This document shows, piece after piece, positions 5,187 to 33,326 of a DNA stretch of 33,631 nt. The notes under the pieces are model-generated. The model saw only the letters and a list, made by a program, of their open reading frames with translations, ran no database searches and was not told where the DNA came from. Made by a program: the position numbers and the translations under genes. Source of the DNA: a virus. The stretch lies in the IMG/VR virus record IMGVR_UViG_3300017706_001668, positions 1-33,631 of that record; one strand, written 5' to 3'. The first letter of the stretch is position 1. Each line of letters opens with the position of its first letter.

Positions 5187-8100
5187 TTACTCCCCTAGAT
5201 CCACAATCAACGCCCTCAGTTCTTCATTCTCTGCTTTCAGTTCTTTAATCGCTTCAATGAATAGCGCTGATAGCTGATCATAATCTACAGTCAAGTAATC
5301 ACCTTCAATCTCTTTATGTAGAGAAGTAGACTTTTTCTTAACAGCCGAAGGGAGAACCTTTTCAACTTGCTGAGCAATAACGCCCGCAGATGGTTTATCT
5401 CCAACTATATAATTATACTCCACGCCATCAATTTGTTTAATCTTGTCGACAGCATTTTCTATCTTATTGATATTATCCTTTAACCTTTCATCAGATGGGG
5501 TAGATGAGTATGCTATAACATCACCAATAACATGGAAATCGCCAGTGCCTGTTAATTTACTCAAAGTACCGTCGATTAGCATCCATCGAGTATCTAAATC
5601 TGCTGTATGACCTGGACCAGACAGCGTGACCACGCCAGTTCCGCTATTAAAGCTCAAGCCAGTTATATCTGAAGAGCCTGCTGGACCTTTTGGACCTGCT
5701 GGACCTTTACCGCCTCCTGGACCTTTTGGACCTCCTGGACCTTTTGAACCTCCTGGACCTTTTGAACCTCCTGGACCTTTAGTACCTCCTGGACCTTTAG
5801 TACCTGTATCTCCCTTTGTACCTGCTGGACCTTTTGTACCTCCTGGACCTTTTGGACCTGCTGGACCTTTACCGCCTCCTGGACCTTTTGGACCTGCTGG
5901 ACCTTTTCCGCCAGTTGGACCTTTAGAACCTGTATTTCCCTTTGGACCTATCGGACCTTTTCCGCCACTTGGACCTTTAGAACCTTTAGAACCAGTTGGA
6001 CCTTTTGTACCAGTTGGACCTTTAGAACCTGTATTTCCCTTTGGACCTATTGGACCTTGTGGACCTTTTGTACCAGTTGGACCTTTTGTACCAGTTGGAC
6101 CTTTTGTACCAGTTGGACCTTTAGAACCTGTATTTCCCTTTGGACCTATTGGACCTTTTGGACCTATTGGACCTTTTGTACCAGTTGGACCTTTAGAACC
6201 AGTTGGACCTTTTGGACCTATTGGACCTTTTGTACCAGTTGGACCTTTAGAACCAGTTGGACCTTTTGTACCAGCTGGACCTTTAGAACCTGTATTTCCC
6301 TTTGGACCTATTGGACCTTTTGGACCTATTGGACCTTTGCCGCCACTTGGACCTTTTGAACCAGTTGGACCTTTTGAACCAGTTGGACCCTTTGGACCTT
6401 GTAGGGCAGCATTAGCTATTGTAATTTTCTTTAGTTGGGTTCCAGAAGTATCACTAACATCTTGAACCAATATCATGTCACTAGATTGAGCGTTAGCTAG
6501 TTCGGTTCTTTCGCTAATTGTTTTTTTGGCGGAAGAGAGGGCTTTGAAATATGAGACATCACCAGTAGTATCGTTATGCTCAGAGAGTTGCCAGTTTTTA
6601 TTAGTTTCGTTCCAACGGAAATCTACATTATTATTTGCGCCACGATTAACAGTTATACCAGCATTTTGGGTAGCAGTAGCATCAGAAGCAAGATCAGAAT
6701 TTAATGTAATCTTATTGTCAGCAATATCTAGAGTGGCAGAGTTTACTGTAGTAGTTGTTCCAGCGACAGACAAATTACCAGAAATTACTACATTCTCAGA
6801 AACAGTTAATTGGCCACCAACTACGGCATCACTTGTAACGTCTAAAGAACCAAAAGCAGCTGATTGGGTAACACTAACACCACCTGGAATAGAAACAAAA
6901 TCATTGAACACTGTATTAGCATTAATGACCAGCGTTGTCAATTCGCCATTGGTCCATTTGGTATGCCTTTCGCCTTCCTCTTGAGCTGACCAATCGCGAC
7001 CTATAGTAACATTTGTACCGTTAGCATTGAACTTCCCGTTTACATGCGTATTACCAGTAACTTGTATATTTTCATCTACATTTAATTGACCTTTTACTGT
7101 GACGTCATCACTTATCGTAGTTGCACCATCAACTCCAAGAGTACCTTTGACGGTAGCATTATTGTTTATCGTAGCTGCGCCATCAACTCCAAGAGTACCT
7201 TTGACGGTAGCATTATTGTTTATCGTAGCTGCGCCATCAACTCCAAGAGTACCTTTGACGGTAGCATTGTTATTGATAGTAGTTGCGCCTTTAATGCCAA
7301 GAGTGCTATTGATAGTAGTTGCGCCATCAACTCCAAGAGTGCCTTTAACATTAGCATTGTTATTGATAGTAGTCGCACCGTCAATAGAAGCAGTACCTTT
7401 AACGGTAGCATTGTTATTGATAGTAGTTGCACCATCAACTCCAAGAGTGCCTTTAACGGTAGTGTTGCCAGAAACCGTAAAGTGATTCTTGACCTCAGTA
7501 TTCGCATCAATTGTAGCAGTTCCTTTGACGGCAAGGCTATTGTCAATAGTAGTTGCGCCTTTAATGCCAAGAGTGCTATTGATAGTAGTTGCGCCATCAA
7601 CTCCAAGAGTGCCTTTAACATTAGCATTGTTATTGATAGTAGTTGCGCCATCAACTCCAAGAGTGCCTTTAACATTAGCATTGTTATTGATAGTAGTCAC
7701 ACCGTCAATAGAAGCAGTACCTTTAACGGTAGTGTTGCCAGAAACCGTAAAGTGATTCTTGACCTCAGTATTCGCATCAATTGTAGCAGTTCCTTTGACA
7801 GCAAGGCTATTTTCTACTGTAGTTGCGCCTTTAATGCCAAGAGTGTTATTTAGAGTAGTTGCGCCTTTGACGTTTAATGTGCTATTAATTTCAGATGCAC
7901 CATCAATCCTTGCAGTACCCTTAACAGTAGCATTGTTATTAATGGTTGTCACCCCATCAACTCCAAGAGTGCCTTTGACGGTAGCATTGTTGCTGATAGT
8001 AGTTGCGCCCTTAACACCAAGAGTGCTATTGATAGTAGTTGCGCCATCAATACTTGCAGTACCCTTAACAGTAGCATTGTTATTAATGGTTGTCGCCCCA

Positions 8101-9029
8101 TCAACCCCAAGAGTGCCTTTGACGGTAGCATTGTTATTAATGGTTGTCACCCCATCAACTCCAAGAGTGCCTTTAACATTAGCATTGTTATTGATAGTAG
8201 TTGCGCCATCAACATCAAGAGTGCTATTTAAAGTAGTTGCGCCATCAACATCAAGAGTGCTATTTAAAGTAGTTGCGCCATCAACATCTAATGCGCCTTC
8301 AAAATTCGCATTACCATTAGAGTCAACAGTTGCTACAATATTATTTCCGCTATCAGCTATTACGAATTGAGATTCTCCGCCAGAATCAGATAGCAATAAC
8401 CTTAAATCTGACCTTCCGAGCTGATTATCTGCAGCTAGGAAGAATTCTATCTTATCCCCCTCACCGCCCGCAAACCTCAAGTGCGGTGAGTCCTTATTAT
8501 CTTGGAATGATGAATTGGCACCAGATAATACAATATGGGCTGAATTAGTTGATAAGTCAGTAATATCTCTCAGAGTTAGGAATTTAAATTCGGGGTTGTC
8601 ATCAGATGTAGCTATTCTTAAGAATTTTCCCTTTGATCCGCCACCAACTATAATACGACTGATATCGCCAAGATTCACACGGTCAGTACCTGCAGTATCA
8701 AAAATAACATTACCAGTAAATGTGGTATTTGCATTTACAAGAAACGCCTTACTCTCTATAGTTGTGTTAGAACCAATGGTCAATAAATTACCACCAGAAG
8801 AAGAACCTGACGATGTATTACCAGCTTTTAATGAATTAGTTCTGAATTCATTAGCAGATAATGTCCCTACAATGTGACCATTACCAACAGTAAATGCTTT
8901 CCTATTAGCAGAACCGTCACGGGATACGGTAACAACATTATTACTAATAATAGTTGCTATGAAATTGGTATTCAATCTCCAAGTATTAAAACTATTATTG
9001 AGTTCTGTATTTGAAACATTAATTGACAT
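5187..9029 (-). CDS. Large tail fibre with beta repeats, collagen shaft and S74 self-cleaving chaperone, 1280 aa
   Basis: Residues 1-95 form a conserved fibre head (FNTWRLNTNFIATIISNNVV, then VGNGHIVGTLSANEFRTNSL). Residues about 245-650 are an array of 12- and 18-residue beta repeats of the type VDGATTINNNATVKGTLG, probably a trimeric beta-helix. Residues about 740-830 contain a module shared with the 255-aa protein. Residues 878-1118 are 80 uninterrupted Gly-X-Y triplets with 40 Lys and one Asp. The C-terminus from Ser1179 (SDERLKDNI) is a Peptidase_S74 intramolecular chaperone, followed by a terminal coiled coil (LSALFIEAIKELKAENEELRAL). In characterised S74 proteins the chaperone drives trimerisation and cleaves itself off next to the conserved Ser, with a nearby Lys. 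That chemistry is inferred here from the intact motif. This is the best candidate for a host-contacting fibre. Confidence 0.92.
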   Translation of the reverse strand: MSINVSNTELNNSFNTWRLNTNFIATIISNNVVTVSRDGSANRKAFTVGNGHIVGTLSANEFRTNSLKAGNTSSGSSSGGNLLTIGSNTTIESKAFLVNANTTFTGNVIFDTAGTDRVNLGDISRIIVGGGSKGKFLRIATSDDNPEFKFLTLRDITDLSTNSAHIVLSGANSSFQDNKDSPHLRFAGGEGDKIEFFLAADNQLGRSDLRLLLSDSGGESQFVIADSGNNIVATVDSNGNANFEGALDVDGATTLNSTLDVDGATTLNSTLDVDGATTINNNANVKGTLGVDGVTTINNNATVKGTLGVDGATTINNNATVKGTASIDGATTINSTLGVKGATTISNNATVKGTLGVDGVTTINNNATVKGTARIDGASEINSTLNVKGATTLNNTLGIKGATTVENSLAVKGTATIDANTEVKNHFTVSGNTTVKGTASIDGVTTINNNANVKGTLGVDGATTINNNANVKGTLGVDGATTINSTLGIKGATTIDNSLAVKGTATIDANTEVKNHFTVSGNTTVKGTLGVDGATTINNNATVKGTASIDGATTINNNANVKGTLGVDGATTINSTLGIKGATTINNNATVKGTLGVDGAATINNNATVKGTLGVDGAATINNNATVKGTLGVDGATTISDDVTVKGQLNVDENIQVTGNTHVNGKFNANGTNVTIGRDWSAQEEGERHTKWTNGELTTLVINANTVFNDFVSIPGGVSVTQSAAFGSLDVTSDAVVGGQLTVSENVVISGNLSVAGTTTTVNSATLDIADNKITLNSDLASDATATQNAGITVNRGANNNVDFRWNETNKNWQLSEHNDTTGDVSYFKALSSAKKTISERTELANAQSSDMILVQDVSDTSGTQLKKITIANAALQGPKGPTGSKGPTGSKGPSGGKGPIGPKGPIGPKGNTGSKGPAGTKGPTGSKGPTGTKGPIGPKGPTGSKGPTGTKGPIGPKGPIGPKGNTGSKGPTGTKGPTGTKGPTGTKGPQGPIGPKGNTGSKGPTGTKGPTGSKGSKGPSGGKGPIGPKGNTGSKGPTGGKGPAGPKGPGGGKGPAGPKGPGGTKGPAGTKGDTGTKGPGGTKGPGGSKGPGGSKGPGGPKGPGGGKGPAGPKGPAGSSDITGLSFNSGTGVVTLSGPGHTADLDTRWMLIDGTLSKLTGTGDFHVIGDVIAYSSTPSDERLKDNINKIENAVDKIKQIDGVEYNYIVGDKPSAGVIAQQVEKVLPSAVKKKSTSLHKEIEGDYLTVDYDQLSALFIEAIKELKAENEELRALIVDLGE
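5190..5495 (-). other. Peptidase_S74 intramolecular chaperone domain
   Basis: Last 102 residues of the 1280-aa fibre: the S-D-x-R-L-K-x-N-I motif at Ser1179, AGVIAQQVEKVLPSAV, YLTVDYDQLSALFIEAIKEL, and a short coiled coil. This is the usual order for the family. The predicted cut is just before Ser1179. Confidence 0.88.
5676..6398 (-). repeat. 80-triplet lysine-rich collagen-like tract of the 1280-aa fibre
   Basis: Exactly 80 Gly-X-Y triplets without interruption. Lysine occupies the Y position of every second triplet almost throughout (40 Lys), with a single acidic residue (GDT). DNA units of 18 bases ([18 protein letters not shown]) are highly repetitive. Confidence 0.93.
7090..8298 (-). 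repeat. 54-base (18-residue) and 36-base tandem repeats in the 1280-aa fibre
   Basis: Near-identical 54-base units encode VDGATTINNNATVKGTLG-type repeats. The promoter-proximal end (about 8210-8298) uses 12-residue units (STLDVDGATTLN). A longer block containing agtgttgccagaaaccgtaa occurs at 7461 and again at 7731, exactly 270 bases apart (5 x 54). Confidence 0.9.
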
Positions 9030-28223: not shown

Positions 28224-28661
28224 ATGGCTCAATTTTATAAAGGCAAATATCAATGTAAATTCCCTGAGAAGTACAAGGGAGATCCCTCGGATATTATTTA
28301 TCGATCAAGCTGGGAATTAAATTGCATGTCATACTTTGACAAGAACCCAGACATAGTTTGGTGGGCTTCGGAGCCTTTCCCTATCGGATATCGATCACCA
28401 ATCGATGGTAAGAAACACCGTTACTTTGTTGACTTTGTCATCAGAACTAAAAACAAAGAAACAATTATGATTGAGGTCAAACCGCACCACCAAACGCATG
28501 AACCCAAAGCACAGAAGCGGTTGACCAAAAGGTATCTAAATGAAGTAAAGACTTGGGGCGTGAACCAAGCCAAATGGGAAGCAGCAATAGATTATTGTAA
28601 AGATCGTGGTTGGAAGTTTCAGATTCTCACTGAAAAAGAGCTGTATAAAAAGAATAAATAG
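28224..28661 (+). CDS. 4: Head completion protein gp4-like, 145 aa
   Basis: The sequence is close to T4 gp4 (about 150 residues): FPEKYKGDPSDIIYRSSWEL, NPDIVWWASEPFPIGYRSPI, DGKKHRYFVDFVI, then IMIEVKPHHQTHEP and TKRYLNEVKTW. The arrangement E (SSWE), D (FVDF) and E-x-K (IEVKP) is the nuclease-like core of the TnsA/PD-(D/E)xK type present in this family. gp4 completes packaged heads so that tails can attach. In T4 it directly precedes gene 53; here gp53 is on the opposite strand across a divergent promoter pair. There is no good ribosome site before the ATG, so the short leader may matter. Confidence 0.93.
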   Translation: MAQFYKGKYQCKFPEKYKGDPSDIIYRSSWELNCMSYFDKNPDIVWWASEPFPIGYRSPIDGKKHRYFVDFVIRTKNKETIMIEVKPHHQTHEPKAQKRLTKRYLNEVKTWGVNQAKWEAAIDYCKDRGWKFQILTEKELYKKNK

Positions 28662-28683: not shown

Positions 28684-29274
28684 ATCGCTACTATATTTGA
28701 TGACCTACTCGCAGCTGGTGTTCGTAAAGGACAGATACCAAATCGCACTCAAGCTGCTAGAGATTGGTTTAGAAATAAAGCAAGACAGCAAAGAAGTGCT
28801 GCTGTGTATCCAGACAATATAATTAAATCTAGCGATAGCAGGAAGGCTCGTGTACTTATTGGTAGGATGTACCACTTTAAGTATGAGCCTAAAGGCGCAA
28901 AGGAACTGCCATATTATGACAGGTTTCCTTTAATATTCATGGTAAGCGTAGCTCCTGGTGGGTTTTATGGAATCAATTTACACTACCTTCCGCCCCAACT
29001 CAGAGCCAGATTGATGGACTCGCTATATGATATTACAAATAATACGAAATATGATGAGTCTACAAAGCTAAAAGTATCATATGATGTACTAAATAGTGCT
29101 AGCAAATACAGGTTTTTCAAACCAACCTTTAAGCATTATCTCAGTTCTCAGGTCAGATCGAAGTTTATTGAGATTAATTCTACGGAATGGGATACTGCGC
29201 TATTCCTCCCAACAGAAAGGTTCCAGAAAGCCAAGAAAACTAAAGTCTGGTCAGATAGTAGGAAAATGATTTAA
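28684..29274 (+). CDS. Conserved T4-like virion/assembly protein of unknown function, apparent ATC start, 196 aa
   Basis: A GTG at 28804 would give only 156 residues, but the frame is open upstream and reads (M)ATIFDDLLAAGVRKGQIP, then RTQAARDWFRNKA, which looks like a natural N-terminus. No ATG, GTG or TTG exists in frame between the stop at 28666 and 28804. AAGGAG at 28670-28675 is 8 bases before ATC 28684, so ATC (or less likely ATT 28678) is the probable start. The central block IGRMYHFKYEPKGAKELPYY, DRFPLIFMVSVAPGGFYGIN, LHYLPPQLRARLMDSLYDIT is strongly patterned. The stop overlaps the next ATG by one base. I recognise the pattern from marine myophages but cannot assign a function. Confidence 0.82.
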   Translation: MATIFDDLLAAGVRKGQIPNRTQAARDWFRNKARQQRSAAVYPDNIIKSSDSRKARVLIGRMYHFKYEPKGAKELPYYDRFPLIFMVSVAPGGFYGINLHYLPPQLRARLMDSLYDITNNTKYDESTKLKVSYDVLNSASKYRFFKPTFKHYLSSQVRSKFIEINSTEWDTALFLPTERFQKAKKTKVWSDSRKMI

Positions 29275-30002
29275 TGGGATTTAATGTCAACGATATGGTG
29301 TCGTCACTCAATAAGAGTGGGTTCGCAAAACCTTCTCACTTTGAAGTATTCATTCAAGGCGGTGGGGATATAGACACTGAGCGTGAACTATCATATAGAG
29401 CAGAATCTGTAGATATTCCAGGAAGAAGTATCGCTTCCGTTGAACATAAATTTCAAAATTATGGACCAGTGAATAAAGTTGCTTATGGGGCAATCTATGG
29501 TGACGTAACTGTTCAGTTCCTCGTCAGTCAAGATATGAGAGAAAAAGAATACTTTGAGATATGGCAAGAAAAAATGGTTGGGACTGGCGCATTTGCTGAT
29601 GGGCAAGCGCAGTACAATACAAAATATTTTGATAATTATGCGGGAACTATAGAAATACGACAATATGGTTCACACGGAAACCTACATTCAATACACACAT
29701 TGAACGAAGCATACCCTTTAATCGTAAACCCAATCACAATGAACTGGGCTGAAGACGGTGCTGTAAGAATGGGTGTTACGTTTGCTTATAGAAATTACAA
29801 GTGCATTTTCACAAAACAAGACCAACCAGAAAAGGGGTTTGGGTTTTCAGTCAGACTTGGGACTGGTGGTATTAGTGGAAGTTTGAGTTTGCCTAAACTC
29901 GGAAATATAGTTGGGTCGAGTGAAGTTGGCGGACAAATTAATGCAGCTGTAGGTAACATAAATAACAGAGTTGCCTCGATAAGAAGCTCATTACAATTTT
30001 AA
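29274..30002 (+). CDS. 54: Baseplate tail-tube initiator gp54-like (gp19 tube fold), 242 aa
   Basis: The order of elements is that of the T4 gp19/gp54 tube fold: SHFEVFIQGGGD, then LSYRAESVDIPGRSIASVEH, NYGPVNKVAYGAIYGDVTVQ, REKEYFEIWQEKMVGTG, and AYPLIVNPITMNWAEDGAVR with a closing strand VTFAYRNYKC. The C-terminal tail (residues about 190-242) is Gly/Ser-rich. gp54 sits on gp48 and starts tube polymerisation; the gp48 homologue lies just across the divergent promoters. The gene could instead be a tube-protein paralogue, because the family signature covers both; context favours gp54. Confidence 0.75.
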   Translation: MGFNVNDMVSSLNKSGFAKPSHFEVFIQGGGDIDTERELSYRAESVDIPGRSIASVEHKFQNYGPVNKVAYGAIYGDVTVQFLVSQDMREKEYFEIWQEKMVGTGAFADGQAQYNTKYFDNYAGTIEIRQYGSHGNLHSIHTLNEAYPLIVNPITMNWAEDGAVRMGVTFAYRNYKCIFTKQDQPEKGFGFSVRLGTGGISGSLSLPKLGNIVGSSEVGGQINAAVGNINNRVASIRSSLQF

Positions 30003-30028: not shown

Positions 30029-30730
30029 ATGGCTTTACCATCATTATCTGCGCCCGAATTTATAACGACAGTGCCGTCGACGGGTGAAGAGATAAAATAT
30101 AGACCATTTCTAGTCAAAGAAGAAAAGATACTTCTTATGGCTTTAGAAGGAAATGATCAAAACGAAATAACTAATGCTATAATGAAGATACTTAGCAATT
30201 GTGTTCTAAGTAATGTTGACATTAAAAAGCTAGCAACATTCGATATTGAATACTTATTTTTAAAGTTGCGTGGAAAATCTGTAGGGGAAGTGATAGAAAT
30301 AAAGGTTGGTCATACAAACCCAGATAACTCTTGTAAGCATAGAACTGAATTAGAAATAAACATTGATGAGATTCAAGTTGTTGGTGATAAGCCGAACGAT
30401 AAAATACAACTAGATGAATCTATCGGTGTTAAACTTAGATTTGCTGGAATGAATGATATATCTGATGTGGATACAGAATCTTCATCAGACTTATTTAAAA
30501 TGATAGCAGGTTGTATTGAATATGTTTATGACCAAGAAAATGTTTATGGTGAATTTAGTCAGAAAGAAATGGAAACTTGGCTTGAACAATTAAGTTCCGA
30601 GCAATTCGCAAAAATAACAGCGTTCTTTAACGATAGCCCAAAGCTACAACATGTGGTAAAGTGGAAATGTCCTGAATGCGGTGAAGAAGATGAGATGACC
30701 TTGGAGGGTCTTGCTGCTTTTTTTATGTAA
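30029..30730 (+). CDS. 26: Baseplate hub assembly protein gp26-like, 233 aa; 0-frame product
   Basis: The conserved gp26 block is at residues 15-60 (VPSTGEEIKYRPFLVKEEKI, LLMALEGND), followed by LATFDIEYLFLKLRGKSVGE. The C-terminus has a C-x2-C pair (KCPECGEEDEM; Cys214 and Cys217) and ends GLAAFFM. T4 gp26 has 208 residues. CTGGAG lies 7 bases before the ATG. In the last codons the mRNA reads GCU UUU UUU AUG UAA, which is a T TTT TTT slippery heptamer right before the stop. A -1 shift would fuse residues 1-232 to the downstream 57-codon frame (292 residues). The position upstream of the tape-measure gene is that of tail-assembly chaperones in other phages. Confidence 0.9.
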   Translation: MALPSLSAPEFITTVPSTGEEIKYRPFLVKEEKILLMALEGNDQNEITNAIMKILSNCVLSNVDIKKLATFDIEYLFLKLRGKSVGEVIEIKVGHTNPDNSCKHRTELEINIDEIQVVGDKPNDKIQLDESIGVKLRFAGMNDISDVDTESSSDLFKMIAGCIEYVYDQENVYGEFSQKEMETWLEQLSSEQFAKITAFFNDSPKLQHVVKWKCPECGEEDEMTLEGLAAFFM

Positions 30731-30766
30731 GCATGGTACATGACTCATTGGCGAATATGTACCAGC
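30718..30766 (+). promoter_or_regulatory. Probable -1 programmed ribosomal frameshift signal
   Basis: Three elements are in series. The heptamer T TTT TTT at 30718-30724 is in the correct X XXY YYZ phase of gp26. A spacer of 6-9 bases follows. Then comes an inverted repeat TGGTACAT (30734-30741) / ATGTACCA (30757-30764), which can be extended by flanking GC pairs (30731-30732 with 30765-30766) across a bulged A. The 15-base loop lies between. The -1 frame entered at 30724 (Tyr-Val-Ser-Met) is exactly that of the next small frame. All positions were read directly; slippage itself is inferred. Confidence 0.72.
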
Positions 30767-30906
30767 TGAACTTCGCTCTAATGCAACACCATAAGTACAG
30801 CTTAACTGAGCTGGACAATATGATTCCATTTGAGCGAGACATTTACGTTGCCCTTTTACAAAACTTTTTGAAAGAGCAAGAAGAAGAACAGAAAAATAGG
30901 AACTGA
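30733..30906 (+). CDS. 57-codon frame after gp26, probable frameshift extension (gp51/chaperone-T-like)
   Basis: The frame reads MVHDSLANMYQLNFALMQHH, then KYSLTELDNMIPFERDIYVA and a charged helical end. The motif FALMxxHxYSLxELxxMxPxERxIY is typical of the short C-terminal half of tail-assembly chaperones, where a helix-rich domain follows a Ser-Leu-x-Glu-Leu core. Its ATG has no ribosome site and is buried in the predicted stem, so expression by -1 frameshift from gp26 is more plausible than independent initiation. If frameshifted, the product is gp26(1-232)-YVS-57 residues. Its stop is followed after 2 bases by the next ATG. Confidence 0.78.
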   Translation: MVHDSLANMYQLNFALMQHHKYSLTELDNMIPFERDIYVALLQNFLKEQEEEQKNRN

Positions 30907-30908
30907 TA

Positions 30909-31232
30909 ATGACAGAAGAAACAGAGAATAATAAAGTATTTCACCCAGCCGACACGAACGGAGACGGTAATGTGAGCGATGCTGAAGAGCAGTTGTATTT
31001 GGAATTTAAAAGAAAAGAACTCGAAGACGCAGATGCTATGCGTGATGCCCAACGTAATATGACATGGTTTGCGCTTGGTGGGTTACTACTCTATCCGTTT
31101 GCTGTTGTTATTGCATCATTAATTGGATTAGATCAAGCCCAAGAAACTCTAGGCGATATGGCACCAACATACTTTGTGTCTGTTGCTGGTATCGTTGCTG
31201 CGTTCTTTGGGTTTCAAAACAAAAAGAAATAG
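30909..31232 (+). CDS. EF-hand protein with two membrane helices, 107 aa, holin-like topology
   Basis: Residues about 12-26 contain a textbook 12-residue calcium loop DTNGDGNVSDAE (acidic or oxygen ligands at positions 1, 3, 5, 9 and 12, Gly at 6, hydrophobic at 8). A charged helix follows (QLYLEFKRKELEDADAMRDA). Then come two hydrophobic spans at residues about 51-74 (MTWFALGGLLLYPFAVVIAS) and about 83-103 (APTYFVSVAGIVAAFFGF), and a short Lys-rich end. Two spans with a charged tail is the layout of class II holins. However, the gene sits between the tail chaperone and tape-measure genes, so a tail-linked membrane role is equally possible. Only the motifs are seen; function is inferred. Confidence 0.8.
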   Translation: MTEETENNKVFHPADTNGDGNVSDAEEQLYLEFKRKELEDADAMRDAQRNMTWFALGGLLLYPFAVVIASLIGLDQAQETLGDMAPTYFVSVAGIVAAFFGFQNKKK

Positions 31233-31241
31233 GAATGAATA

Positions 31242-33326
31242 ATGGCTGACCCGAAGTTACCTGAAGTTCTACAAGCTAATTTAGATACTAATGTGACAGT
31301 ATCTCAGAACCAACAGAAATTACAGAATGCGATGGCGGTATTTGCTGCCAGTAACAAGACATTCTCTAAAACTTCTGTAGCACTAAACGACTTCGCCAAA
31401 CAGCAAATTACCAAACTAAATCCATTTAAAAGTTTAAAAGATAAATTCGATAATTCGTTTGCTGGTCAAAAACTCAGGCAAAAGAAAGAAGAAGAAAACC
31501 TAGCGAAGGCTGCGGGAATAACACGTGATGAACTACTATTACTCAAAGCTAACAAGGAACTAAAAGAGGCGCAGACCGCTCAGGCTGATGCGTTAAAGAA
31601 TTCCCTTGATGAATATGGACTAAACGTAAATACATTCTTCAATGATGCGGGTGAGCTTCAGACTAGAATGGCTGAACGTGACGAAAATGGCAGGTTCCAG
31701 TCAGCCCAAACCATTGTTAATGGTATCGTAGGCTCTATGGAAAGCGGTCAGATGCAAGAAATAGAAAACCGCAGAGAGCAAGCCAGACGTGATGAAGAAC
31801 AGTCTGTATTATTAGAGTCATTAGCTGGAGGAATCAGCAAACTAGGAGACAACCTCCTCAAGGGATTGAAGGCTTTAGGCAAAGGCGGTGGTATGGGTCT
31901 TGGTATTTTTGCTGGTCTAGTTGCCACGCCATTAATAGTGCTTTCTAATTTCTTCGGTCAACTTAAAAAGGAATTTAGAGCTCTAAAGAACCTGACGAAT
32001 ACTAAAATACTTGCGCCAATCAAATCATTAGGAACGTGGTTAAAGGGTCTTGGCGGGCAATTCAAAACCCTTACATCAACAAAATATTTTACGCCATTTA
32101 AGAATTTCGGGAATTGGTTAAAGGGTCTTGGTGGGCAATTTAAGGGACTTTTCTCAAGTAAATTGGGCAACTCATTAGACCCAATTAAAAACCTTGGAAC
32201 CTCTTTAAAGACAGCAGGGAATCAGTTGAAGGCATCTACTGCTAAAAATATTATTGATCCCCTTAAATCCCTTGGGTCTTCTTTGAAGAATGCTGGTAGC
32301 CAATTCAAAGCAGCTAGTAAAGCTAATGTCATAAATCCAGCCACCAATGCAATCACTGGTATTCGGAGTTACTTCTCAGGTCTAGGTGCCAATGTAAAAA
32401 CGGCATTTAGTCAAGGTGGAAAATTTGGTATTGTTTCAGACATAGGGAAATCTATAAAGGGAATGTTTGGTTCGGGCGGCAAGTTCGCTAGCATAAGCAA
32501 TGCATTCAAAGCTGGGTTCCAACCTATATCTAAATTCGCAGCAGGTGCTGGTAAACTTCTTGGTAAACTATTCCTACCAGTGACAGTCATCATGGGAATC
32601 ATTGATGCAGTCAAAGGATTTATGGAAGGGTTTTCTGAAGAAGGAATTGTTGGGGGATTGGTTGGCGCATTCGAAGGGGTTATCACTGGACTAGTTGCTG
32701 TTCCTCTCGATCTACTTAAAAATTTGGTTTCGTGGATTGCTGGAAAGCTAGGGTTTGAAGGTTTATCGGAGAAACTTGACAGCTTCTCGTTCGCTGAAAT
32801 GTTTGCTAAATTCTTCGACTTTATCCAGAATATAAGACTGTCAATCAGCGACTGGATTGAAGATAAACTATTGAGTTTGAGGGGTTTGATCCCATCATTT
32901 CTTGGCGGTCTGAGTGATGAAGAACTTGCTGGGAAAAGAGCTAATCTAGAAGCCGAGCGTGCGGCACGTGATGACATCATAAAAGAAAACAGGCTGAAGA
33001 AAACCGCTAAGAACAAAGGCATTCCAGTTGACGAATTGAAAATGAATATGCTTGCCGATGAGACAAATAATAGGCAAGCAGCTGACCTTGCTAGGGAAAA
33101 ATTAAGCGGTAATCCTGCTGGGGCAGGGGGAAATAAAGGGGCAGAGGTCAACGCTCAGTCTGCTCAGGCTGCTTCTGCAGCTGGGAACGTAGTAGTTACA
33201 ACTATCGCACCCACTAATGTTAATGCTCCAACTTCAACTAGCGTTAGTAACCAAACAAATGTAACTCCAACCGCATCTAGAAGTAGGAATAGATCTAGAC
33301 GTGGTAGACAATACGCTCCTGCATAA
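31242..33326 (+). CDS. Tail tape-measure protein (gp29-like role), 694 aa
   Basis: Long alpha-helical protein. Residues 1-200 are charged coiled-coil-like sequence. Residues about 220-240 form a hydrophobic helix (GLGIFAGLVATPLIVLSNFF). Residues about 256-362 hold four imperfect 26-29-residue repeats of the type P-I-K-S-L-G-x-x-L-K-x-x-G-x-Q-F/L-K. Residues about 440-520 form a hydrophobic block (LLGKLFLPVTVIMGIIDAVK, GIVGGLVGAFEGVITGLVAV) typical of the membrane-inserting part of tape measures. The C-terminus is Ala/Asn/Thr-rich and ends basic (SRSRNRSRRGR). T4 gp29 has 590 residues. The gene follows the chaperone module, as expected. The ruler function is inferred from composition and position. 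Confidence 0.85.
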   Translation: MADPKLPEVLQANLDTNVTVSQNQQKLQNAMAVFAASNKTFSKTSVALNDFAKQQITKLNPFKSLKDKFDNSFAGQKLRQKKEEENLAKAAGITRDELLLLKANKELKEAQTAQADALKNSLDEYGLNVNTFFNDAGELQTRMAERDENGRFQSAQTIVNGIVGSMESGQMQEIENRREQARRDEEQSVLLESLAGGISKLGDNLLKGLKALGKGGGMGLGIFAGLVATPLIVLSNFFGQLKKEFRALKNLTNTKILAPIKSLGTWLKGLGGQFKTLTSTKYFTPFKNFGNWLKGLGGQFKGLFSSKLGNSLDPIKNLGTSLKTAGNQLKASTAKNIIDPLKSLGSSLKNAGSQFKAASKANVINPATNAITGIRSYFSGLGANVKTAFSQGGKFGIVSDIGKSIKGMFGSGGKFASISNAFKAGFQPISKFAAGAGKLLGKLFLPVTVIMGIIDAVKGFMEGFSEEGIVGGLVGAFEGVITGLVAVPLDLLKNLVSWIAGKLGFEGLSEKLDSFSFAEMFAKFFDFIQNIRLSISDWIEDKLLSLRGLIPSFLGGLSDEELAGKRANLEAERAARDDIIKENRLKKTAKNKGIPVDELKMNMLADETNNRQAADLAREKLSGNPAGAGGNKGAEVNAQSAQAASAAGNVVVTTIAPTNVNAPTSTSVSNQTNVTPTASRSRNRSRRGRQYAPA
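32007..32330 (+). repeat. Four imperfect 26-29-residue repeats in the tape-measure protein
   Basis: Units start at ILAPIKSLG, YFTPFKNFG, SLDPIKNLG and IIDPLKSLG. Spacing from proline to proline is 26, 29, 26 and 26 residues, the last to a partial fifth unit (VINP). Two of them share the exact string WLKGLGGQFK. Gain or loss of a unit would be expected to alter tail length. Confidence 0.8.

Follow-up and report, generated by a model that had tools for sequence, protein, structure and literature searches.

In lambda (gpG/gpGT) and other phages with a -1 frameshifted tail assembly chaperone (TAC), a single gene gives a short form and a frameshift-extended form, with a slippery heptamer (GGGAAAG in lambda) just ahead of the stop codon, and the gene lies between those for the tail tube and the tape measure. 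In E. coli dnaX, the -1 signal has three parts: a slippery heptamer (A AAA AAG), a Shine-Dalgarno (SD)-like element some 10 nt 5' to it and a 3' stem-loop; the dnaX shift gives the shorter protein.

A 2016 review (PMC5009743) described the G-T frameshift as widely conserved in long-tailed phages “except T4”, and T4 gp26 and gp51 were described as hub assembly chaperones (PMC3004832), gp51 being required for assembly and absent from the particle. In the Vandenendeviridae/Andersonviridae (phage Adele, PMC12846349), a poly-T -1 site at the end of TAC-N was proposed from sequence, as in this work, and the small downstream frame had likewise been misannotated as a gene; those phages belong to other families and their motif is GTTTTT. 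For T4-like phages, the TAC genes were identified by Vladimirov et al. (2022), according to the papers citing that study: PRFect (PMC10885494) refers to it for some T4-like phages having a short gene and a longer fusion gene, not a frameshift, and the study of phage Adele (PMC12846349) refers to it for -1 signals of the poly-T kind in T4-like TAC-N genes. Judging by these citations, it had already been published that gp26 and gp51 are chaperones and, very probably, that some T4-like phages frameshift, and the original prediction was out of date in regarding frameshifting at T4-like gp26 as not established. No report on the stimulator part of the T4-like signal was found in this literature, Vladimirov et al. 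being represented by its citing papers. As far as found, four things are new: how large the conservation test is, selection on the SD-like stimulator, covariation in the stem, and the strict division of the examined records into one-gene and two-gene phages.

The window (the whole stretch of 33,631 bases from an IMG/VR record) was DNA of a T4-like phage. Its gp26 homologue and the small frame that follows almost certainly form one gene, encoding a tail assembly chaperone pair by means of a -1 frameshift on T TTT TTT. The features of the locus were as follows:

29274-30002, + strand: tail tube protein, upstream neighbour (phrog_45, E 2e-28)
30029-30730, + strand: gp26 homologue, short tail assembly chaperone (TAC-N), zero-frame product of 233 aa
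30704-30709, + strand: GGAGGG, internal SD-like element in the LEG codons, its GGAGG ending about 10 nt 5' of the heptamer
30718-30724, + strand: slippery heptamer T TTT TTT, putative -1 shift site, in phase with gp26
30718-30906, + strand: -1 frame extension, putative C-terminal part of the long chaperone (TAC-NC), 62 aa, with its stop at 30904-30906
30728-30730, + strand: zero-frame TAA stop of gp26, one codon beyond the heptamer
30734-30764, + strand: stem-loop, presumed stimulator, with arms at 30734-30741 and 30757-30764, 9 nt past the heptamer
31242-33326, + strand: probable tape measure protein, downstream, 694 aa (phrog_27688, E 6e-13)

Protein families, fold and gene neighbourhood

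Family profiles recognised both parts of the gene. The zero-frame product matched PF12322 (E 1.1e-65) and phrog_150 (E 4.4e-70); the extension matched phrog_634 (“baseplate hub assembly catalyst”, E 5.1e-27), a protein named “gp51” in cyanophages, and also the C-terminal end of phrog_150 (positions 231-281, E 5.6e-8). The profile search against chaperone families that had been suggested for the small frame accordingly identified it as a phrog_634 member, homologous to the C-terminus of T4 gp51. The Pfam family RE_HaeIII (E 0.06) was discarded as a chance match to the extension, and sequence searches of the PDB gave no match for gp26 and only chance matches to coiled coils for the extension.

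The AlphaFold model of gp26 (57 sequences, pLDDT 88.6) was compared with solved structures using VIA-align. Residues 1-87 aligned with 3fgx (Z 7.9), with the HK97 tail assembly chaperone gp13 (2ob9, Z 7.5 over 83 residues) and with YqbN (3klu, Z 7.5); 5ir0 came next at 4.8, and the rest were at 2.5 or less. We take 3fgx and YqbN to be prophage kin of tail assembly chaperones. A Foldseek search of the same model against the PDB gave E-values that were not significant. The alignments, with Z under 8, lend moderate support to a tail assembly chaperone fold in the modelled N-domain of gp26, the short form, like that of HK97 gp13. Relative to lambda-type chaperones, gp26 is a bigger protein (233 aa) whose additional half is rich in beta strands. 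The fourth structure, 5ir0_B, which aligned with residues 8-91 of the model, is ORF19 of a Vibrio cholerae PICI-like element and possibly a satellite relative of tail chaperones.

The gene lay downstream of the tail tube gene; the position between tail tube and tape measure genes that is usual in lambda-type phages would apply if the large protein further downstream is the tape measure. The product of 31242-33326 is probably that protein, a weak assignment: the phrog_27688 member of phage phiM19, also two genes downstream, matched the tape measure family phrog_305 at 1.8e-5. Several other genes of the window were also noted. The gene separating the chaperone from the probable tape measure, 30909-31232 (+), encoded a 107-aa protein with two hydrophobic segments and a loop resembling an EF-hand (DTNGDGNVSDAEE), its match to PF13202 reaching only E 0.1. 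A gp4-like head closure protein (28224-28661, +; phrog_218, E 1.5e-58) was in addition a match to PF08722, the N-terminal family of the TnsA endonuclease (E 4.3e-23). On the minus strand, 2-2632 and 5187-9029 encoded two long proteins that have collagen-like G-X-Y repeats and are probably tail fibre or adhesin-like.

The slip site and the -1 frame

The 3' end of gp26 reads GCT TTT TTT ATG TAA, and the in-phase T TTT TTT that had been predicted near the stop was found at 30718-30724, with only the ATG codon between it and the stop. The -1 frame was open from 30718 to 30903 and, also as predicted, ran into the next small frame. The length of 57 codons originally given for the extension needs amending: an ORF of 57 codons does exist in this frame, starting at the ATG at 30733-30735, but counted from the slip the extension has 62 residues. 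The heptamer alone is weak evidence for frameshifting, because the 9,501 codons of the window contained 45 in-phase X XXY YYZ heptamers (two of them T TTT TTY); it is conservation, not the heptamer by itself, that decides the case.

Two IMG/VR scans plus four phage records provided 163 loci with both parts, the window included; these contained some contigs fetched twice, and 113 were left after removal of near-identical ones. The extension was in the -1 frame relative to gp26 in all 163 loci (113 non-redundant), and in all 163 the end of gp26 carried an in-phase TTTTTT (TTTTTTC in 85, TTTTTTT in 71 and TTTTTTA in 7), separated from the gp26 stop by a single codon in 133. When loci were chosen by gp26 alone (n = 80), 78 of the 78 reaching past gp26 had the -1 extension; in the other two (L036 and L042) the gp26 match was cut at the end of the DNA. 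Codon choice was equally strict: the third base of the codon preceding the TTTTTT was T in 113 of 113 loci (867 of 1,483 at other occurrences of these residues), and Phe231, the first of the Phe pair, was TTT in 111 of 111 genes of the codon alignment, being the sole conserved column free of synonymous variation (other conserved Phe columns were 42-84% TTT). Owing to the common descent of the loci, none of the across-locus tests in this work is fully independent. The alignment of relatives proposed as a check on the original prediction came out in its favour as to the heptamer, the -1 phase and the missing ribosome site, conserved in every relative examined.

Most records annotate the small frame as a separate gene (the cyanophage “gp51”), which would be translated by re-initiation or coupling past the gp26 stop, and the window has an ATG 2 nt past that stop. 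We consider this very improbable and reject it: a ribosome-binding site is missing and often the start codon too. The gp26 gene has its own SD sequence (anti-SD duplex -6.4 kcal/mol) and the two genes after the extension reach -4.2 kcal/mol each, whereas no ribosome site was detected at ATG 30733 (best anti-SD duplex +0.9 kcal/mol). In the 41 loci having an ATG near the extension start, the mean of the best anti-SD duplex was -0.66 kcal/mol and none reached -6, compared with means of -5.6 for gp26 (59% reaching -6) and -4.4 for the gene after the extension; the claim that the small frame has no ribosome site of its own was thus borne out. Over codons 1-12 of the -1 frame, 68 of 113 loci had no ATG and 48 of 113 had none of ATG, GTG or TTG. 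The extension protein was conserved from the first FF onward, that is, conservation begins at the heptamer, ahead of any start. A separate gene would also leave the invariant heptamer and phase unexplained, and T4 carries this peptide as a fusion with a gp26 domain (see below). The internal ATG at 30733 is probably not used.

Database annotation of the extension was uneven. It was unannotated in VH7D, AS-yj, ACG-2014d and S-WAM1, and in Mosig, Melnitz and P-TIM40 it was annotated from a start within the conserved part, so the database start positions are probably wrong.

Elements flanking the heptamer

The commonest form of the upstream element across loci was GGAGG or GAGG in the LEG codons, ending 10 nt 5' of the heptamer; it was degenerate or absent in a minority of loci (none in 9 of 113). 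The Glu codon of LEG was GAG in 59 of 79 cases, against 680 of 2,591 other Glu codons (P 1.5e-18), and among eight conserved Glu columns it was 73% GAG, the seven others being 14-33%. The anti-SD duplex was stronger than in synonymous shuffles (-6.85 vs. -5.21 kcal/mol, P 5e-11). Judged by codon usage and anti-SD pairing, the SD-like element is under selection; this presumed stimulator is a point of difference from lambda-type chaperone genes.

Downstream, the arms TGGTACAT (30734-30741) and ATGTACCA (30757-30764) form the perfect 8-bp inverted repeat that had been predicted behind the heptamer, with a spacing of 9 nt and a 15-nt loop, and the ATG of the small frame (30733-30735) overlaps the start of the stem, also as described. 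The fold was -14.7 kcal/mol (z -2.84 vs. dinucleotide shuffles, 2 of 200 shuffles being as good). Regarding its conservation, in 21 sequences (the window and near relatives) 95.8% of the pair cells were formed, compared with 13-57% in slid controls, and two pairs had changed on both sides. The 8-bp stem was specific to near relatives; in remoter ones it was often replaced by other, sometimes weak, hairpins. Across loci, the 48 nt past the slip folded at -7.6 kcal/mol vs. -5.1 in codon-preserving shuffles (P 1.7e-9). A 3' stem-loop is thus under selection, as indicated by folding energy and covariation.

The layout is that of E. coli dnaX: an SD-like element about 10 nt upstream, an X XXY YYZ heptamer and a 3' stem-loop. 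The heptamer differs (U UUU UUY here, U-rich also in comparison with that of lambda), and the shift leads to a longer protein here, unlike in dnaX. The locus has sequence features of programmed -1 frameshift sites of the X XXY YYZ class: an in-phase heptamer, a conserved open -1 frame lacking its own initiation site and two flanking, presumably stimulatory elements, both under selection.

Slippage of RNA polymerase on the T run might also produce the long form, and runs of at least seven T were present in nearly half of the loci. Six T is a short run for polymerase slippage, and in 85 of the 163 loci the run breaks off with a C after six T; moreover, an X XXY YYZ register kept in phase, an SD-like element spaced as in dnaX and a 3' stem that covaries are signals to the ribosome. 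Transcriptional slippage is disfavoured by the common TTTTTTC form in particular, and its probability is as small as that of a separate gene. The remaining idea, that the protein itself needs the terminal FF of gp26 and that the heptamer and phase are by-products, draws on T4 gp26, which retains GLKEFF without a slippery run, so that these residues have some value of their own, but it is refuted by the codon data (TTT in 111 of 111 and T always in the preceding third position, against fractions of 0.42-0.84 TTT in other conserved Phe columns) and by the constant presence of the -1 extension, and its probability is negligible.

Under ribosomal -1 frameshifting, most ribosomes would terminate at the gp26 TAA, releasing the short form (TAC-N), and a minority would slip one base back on T TTT TTT, both tRNA-Phe re-pairing, to produce gp26 with the 62-codon C-terminal tail (TAC-NC). 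GGAGG, 10 nt upstream, would raise the slip rate by pairing with the anti-SD of the ribosome, and so would the stem-loop 9 nt downstream. We infer from these elements and by homology that slipping occurs, at what rate, how each stimulator acts and which partners the two forms have: if lambda gpG/gpGT is a guide, the tape measure protein would be coated by the short form, and tail tube subunits would be brought in by the C-terminal tail of the long form.

Distribution and the T4 proteins gp26 and gp51

The same arrangement was found in ten named phages: the cyanophages S-PM2, P-TIM40, ACG-2014d and DSL-LC02; Mosig (Pelagibacter), Melnitz (Methylophilales), phiM19 (Sinorhizobium) and pf16 (Pseudomonas); and VH7D (Vibrio, Schizotequatrovirus) and AS-yj (Aeromonas, Ceceduovirus). 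T4 gp26 (208 aa) was without the extension, and its terminus still reads GLKEFFELL without a slippery run. T4 gp51 (249 aa) was a second PF12322 protein (E 3.9e-52) ending in the extension (phrog_634, E 1.2e-23): the extension profile aligned with gp51 residues 200-244 (E 7.5e-6), and by the alignment the join lies close to the FF/heptamer position. When aligned gp26 sequences were compared with T4 gp51 by HHalign, only a short local piece was recovered, the match to gp51 coming from the PF12322 profile. As read from these alignments, T4 gp51 is a gp26-like domain followed by the same extension in one frame. With homologous domains, T4 gp26 corresponds to the short form and gp51 to the short form plus extension. 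Short and long forms sharing their N-terminal part, as in tail assembly chaperones, are thus indicated both by the frame arrangement and by T4 gp51. The chaperone fold of the N-domain and the fused form in T4 sustain the proposal that gp26 and the small protein be unified with the G/GT chaperones, and a gp51 that is needed for assembly yet absent from the particle fits the lambda gpG/gpGT scheme by analogy.

Whole-record searches found one PF12322 gene in each of the 11 frameshift phages (the ten named above and AG-345-L05), and two in each of T4, RB43, Aeromonas 25 and Thanatos-2, which have two paralogous genes instead of one gene with a frameshift. In RB43 the fused gp51 and gp26 were in tandem on the same strand (L175:2501-3794), an order possibly closer to that of the original duplication; the two genes were divergent in T4, Aeromonas 25 and Thanatos-2. 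In the tree, gp51 and the gp26 of frameshift phages were set apart from T4-type gp26, the root and long branches leaving the order of events open. Because the root is open, we infer, rather than observe, that the frameshift was replaced by a duplication in the T4 line, which is the likely course.

Tentatively, we extend this to the whole group: chaperone frameshifting of T4-like phages may use a full dnaX-type signal (internal SD, U UUU UUY heptamer and 3' stem-loop) across the lineage (Kyanoviridae, Emdodecavirus, pf16, Schizotequatrovirus and Ceceduovirus), lost in T4 and the phages nearest to it once a duplicate copy fused in frame, gp51, had assumed the role of the long form. If so, the T4 “exception” would be a lost frameshift.

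The “gp51” of cyanophages and other marine T4-like phages is most likely, on the sequence comparisons presented, the frameshifted tail of gp26 and not a gene of its own; its annotation would therefore be wrong or missing in hundreds of deposited genomes. The T4 hub chaperones gp26 and gp51, the latter long listed as of unknown function, would find their place in the lambda G/GT scheme. T4 appears to have replaced the frameshift trick of tailed phages by two separate genes, and this replacement of a frameshift by a duplication is a testable evolutionary step.
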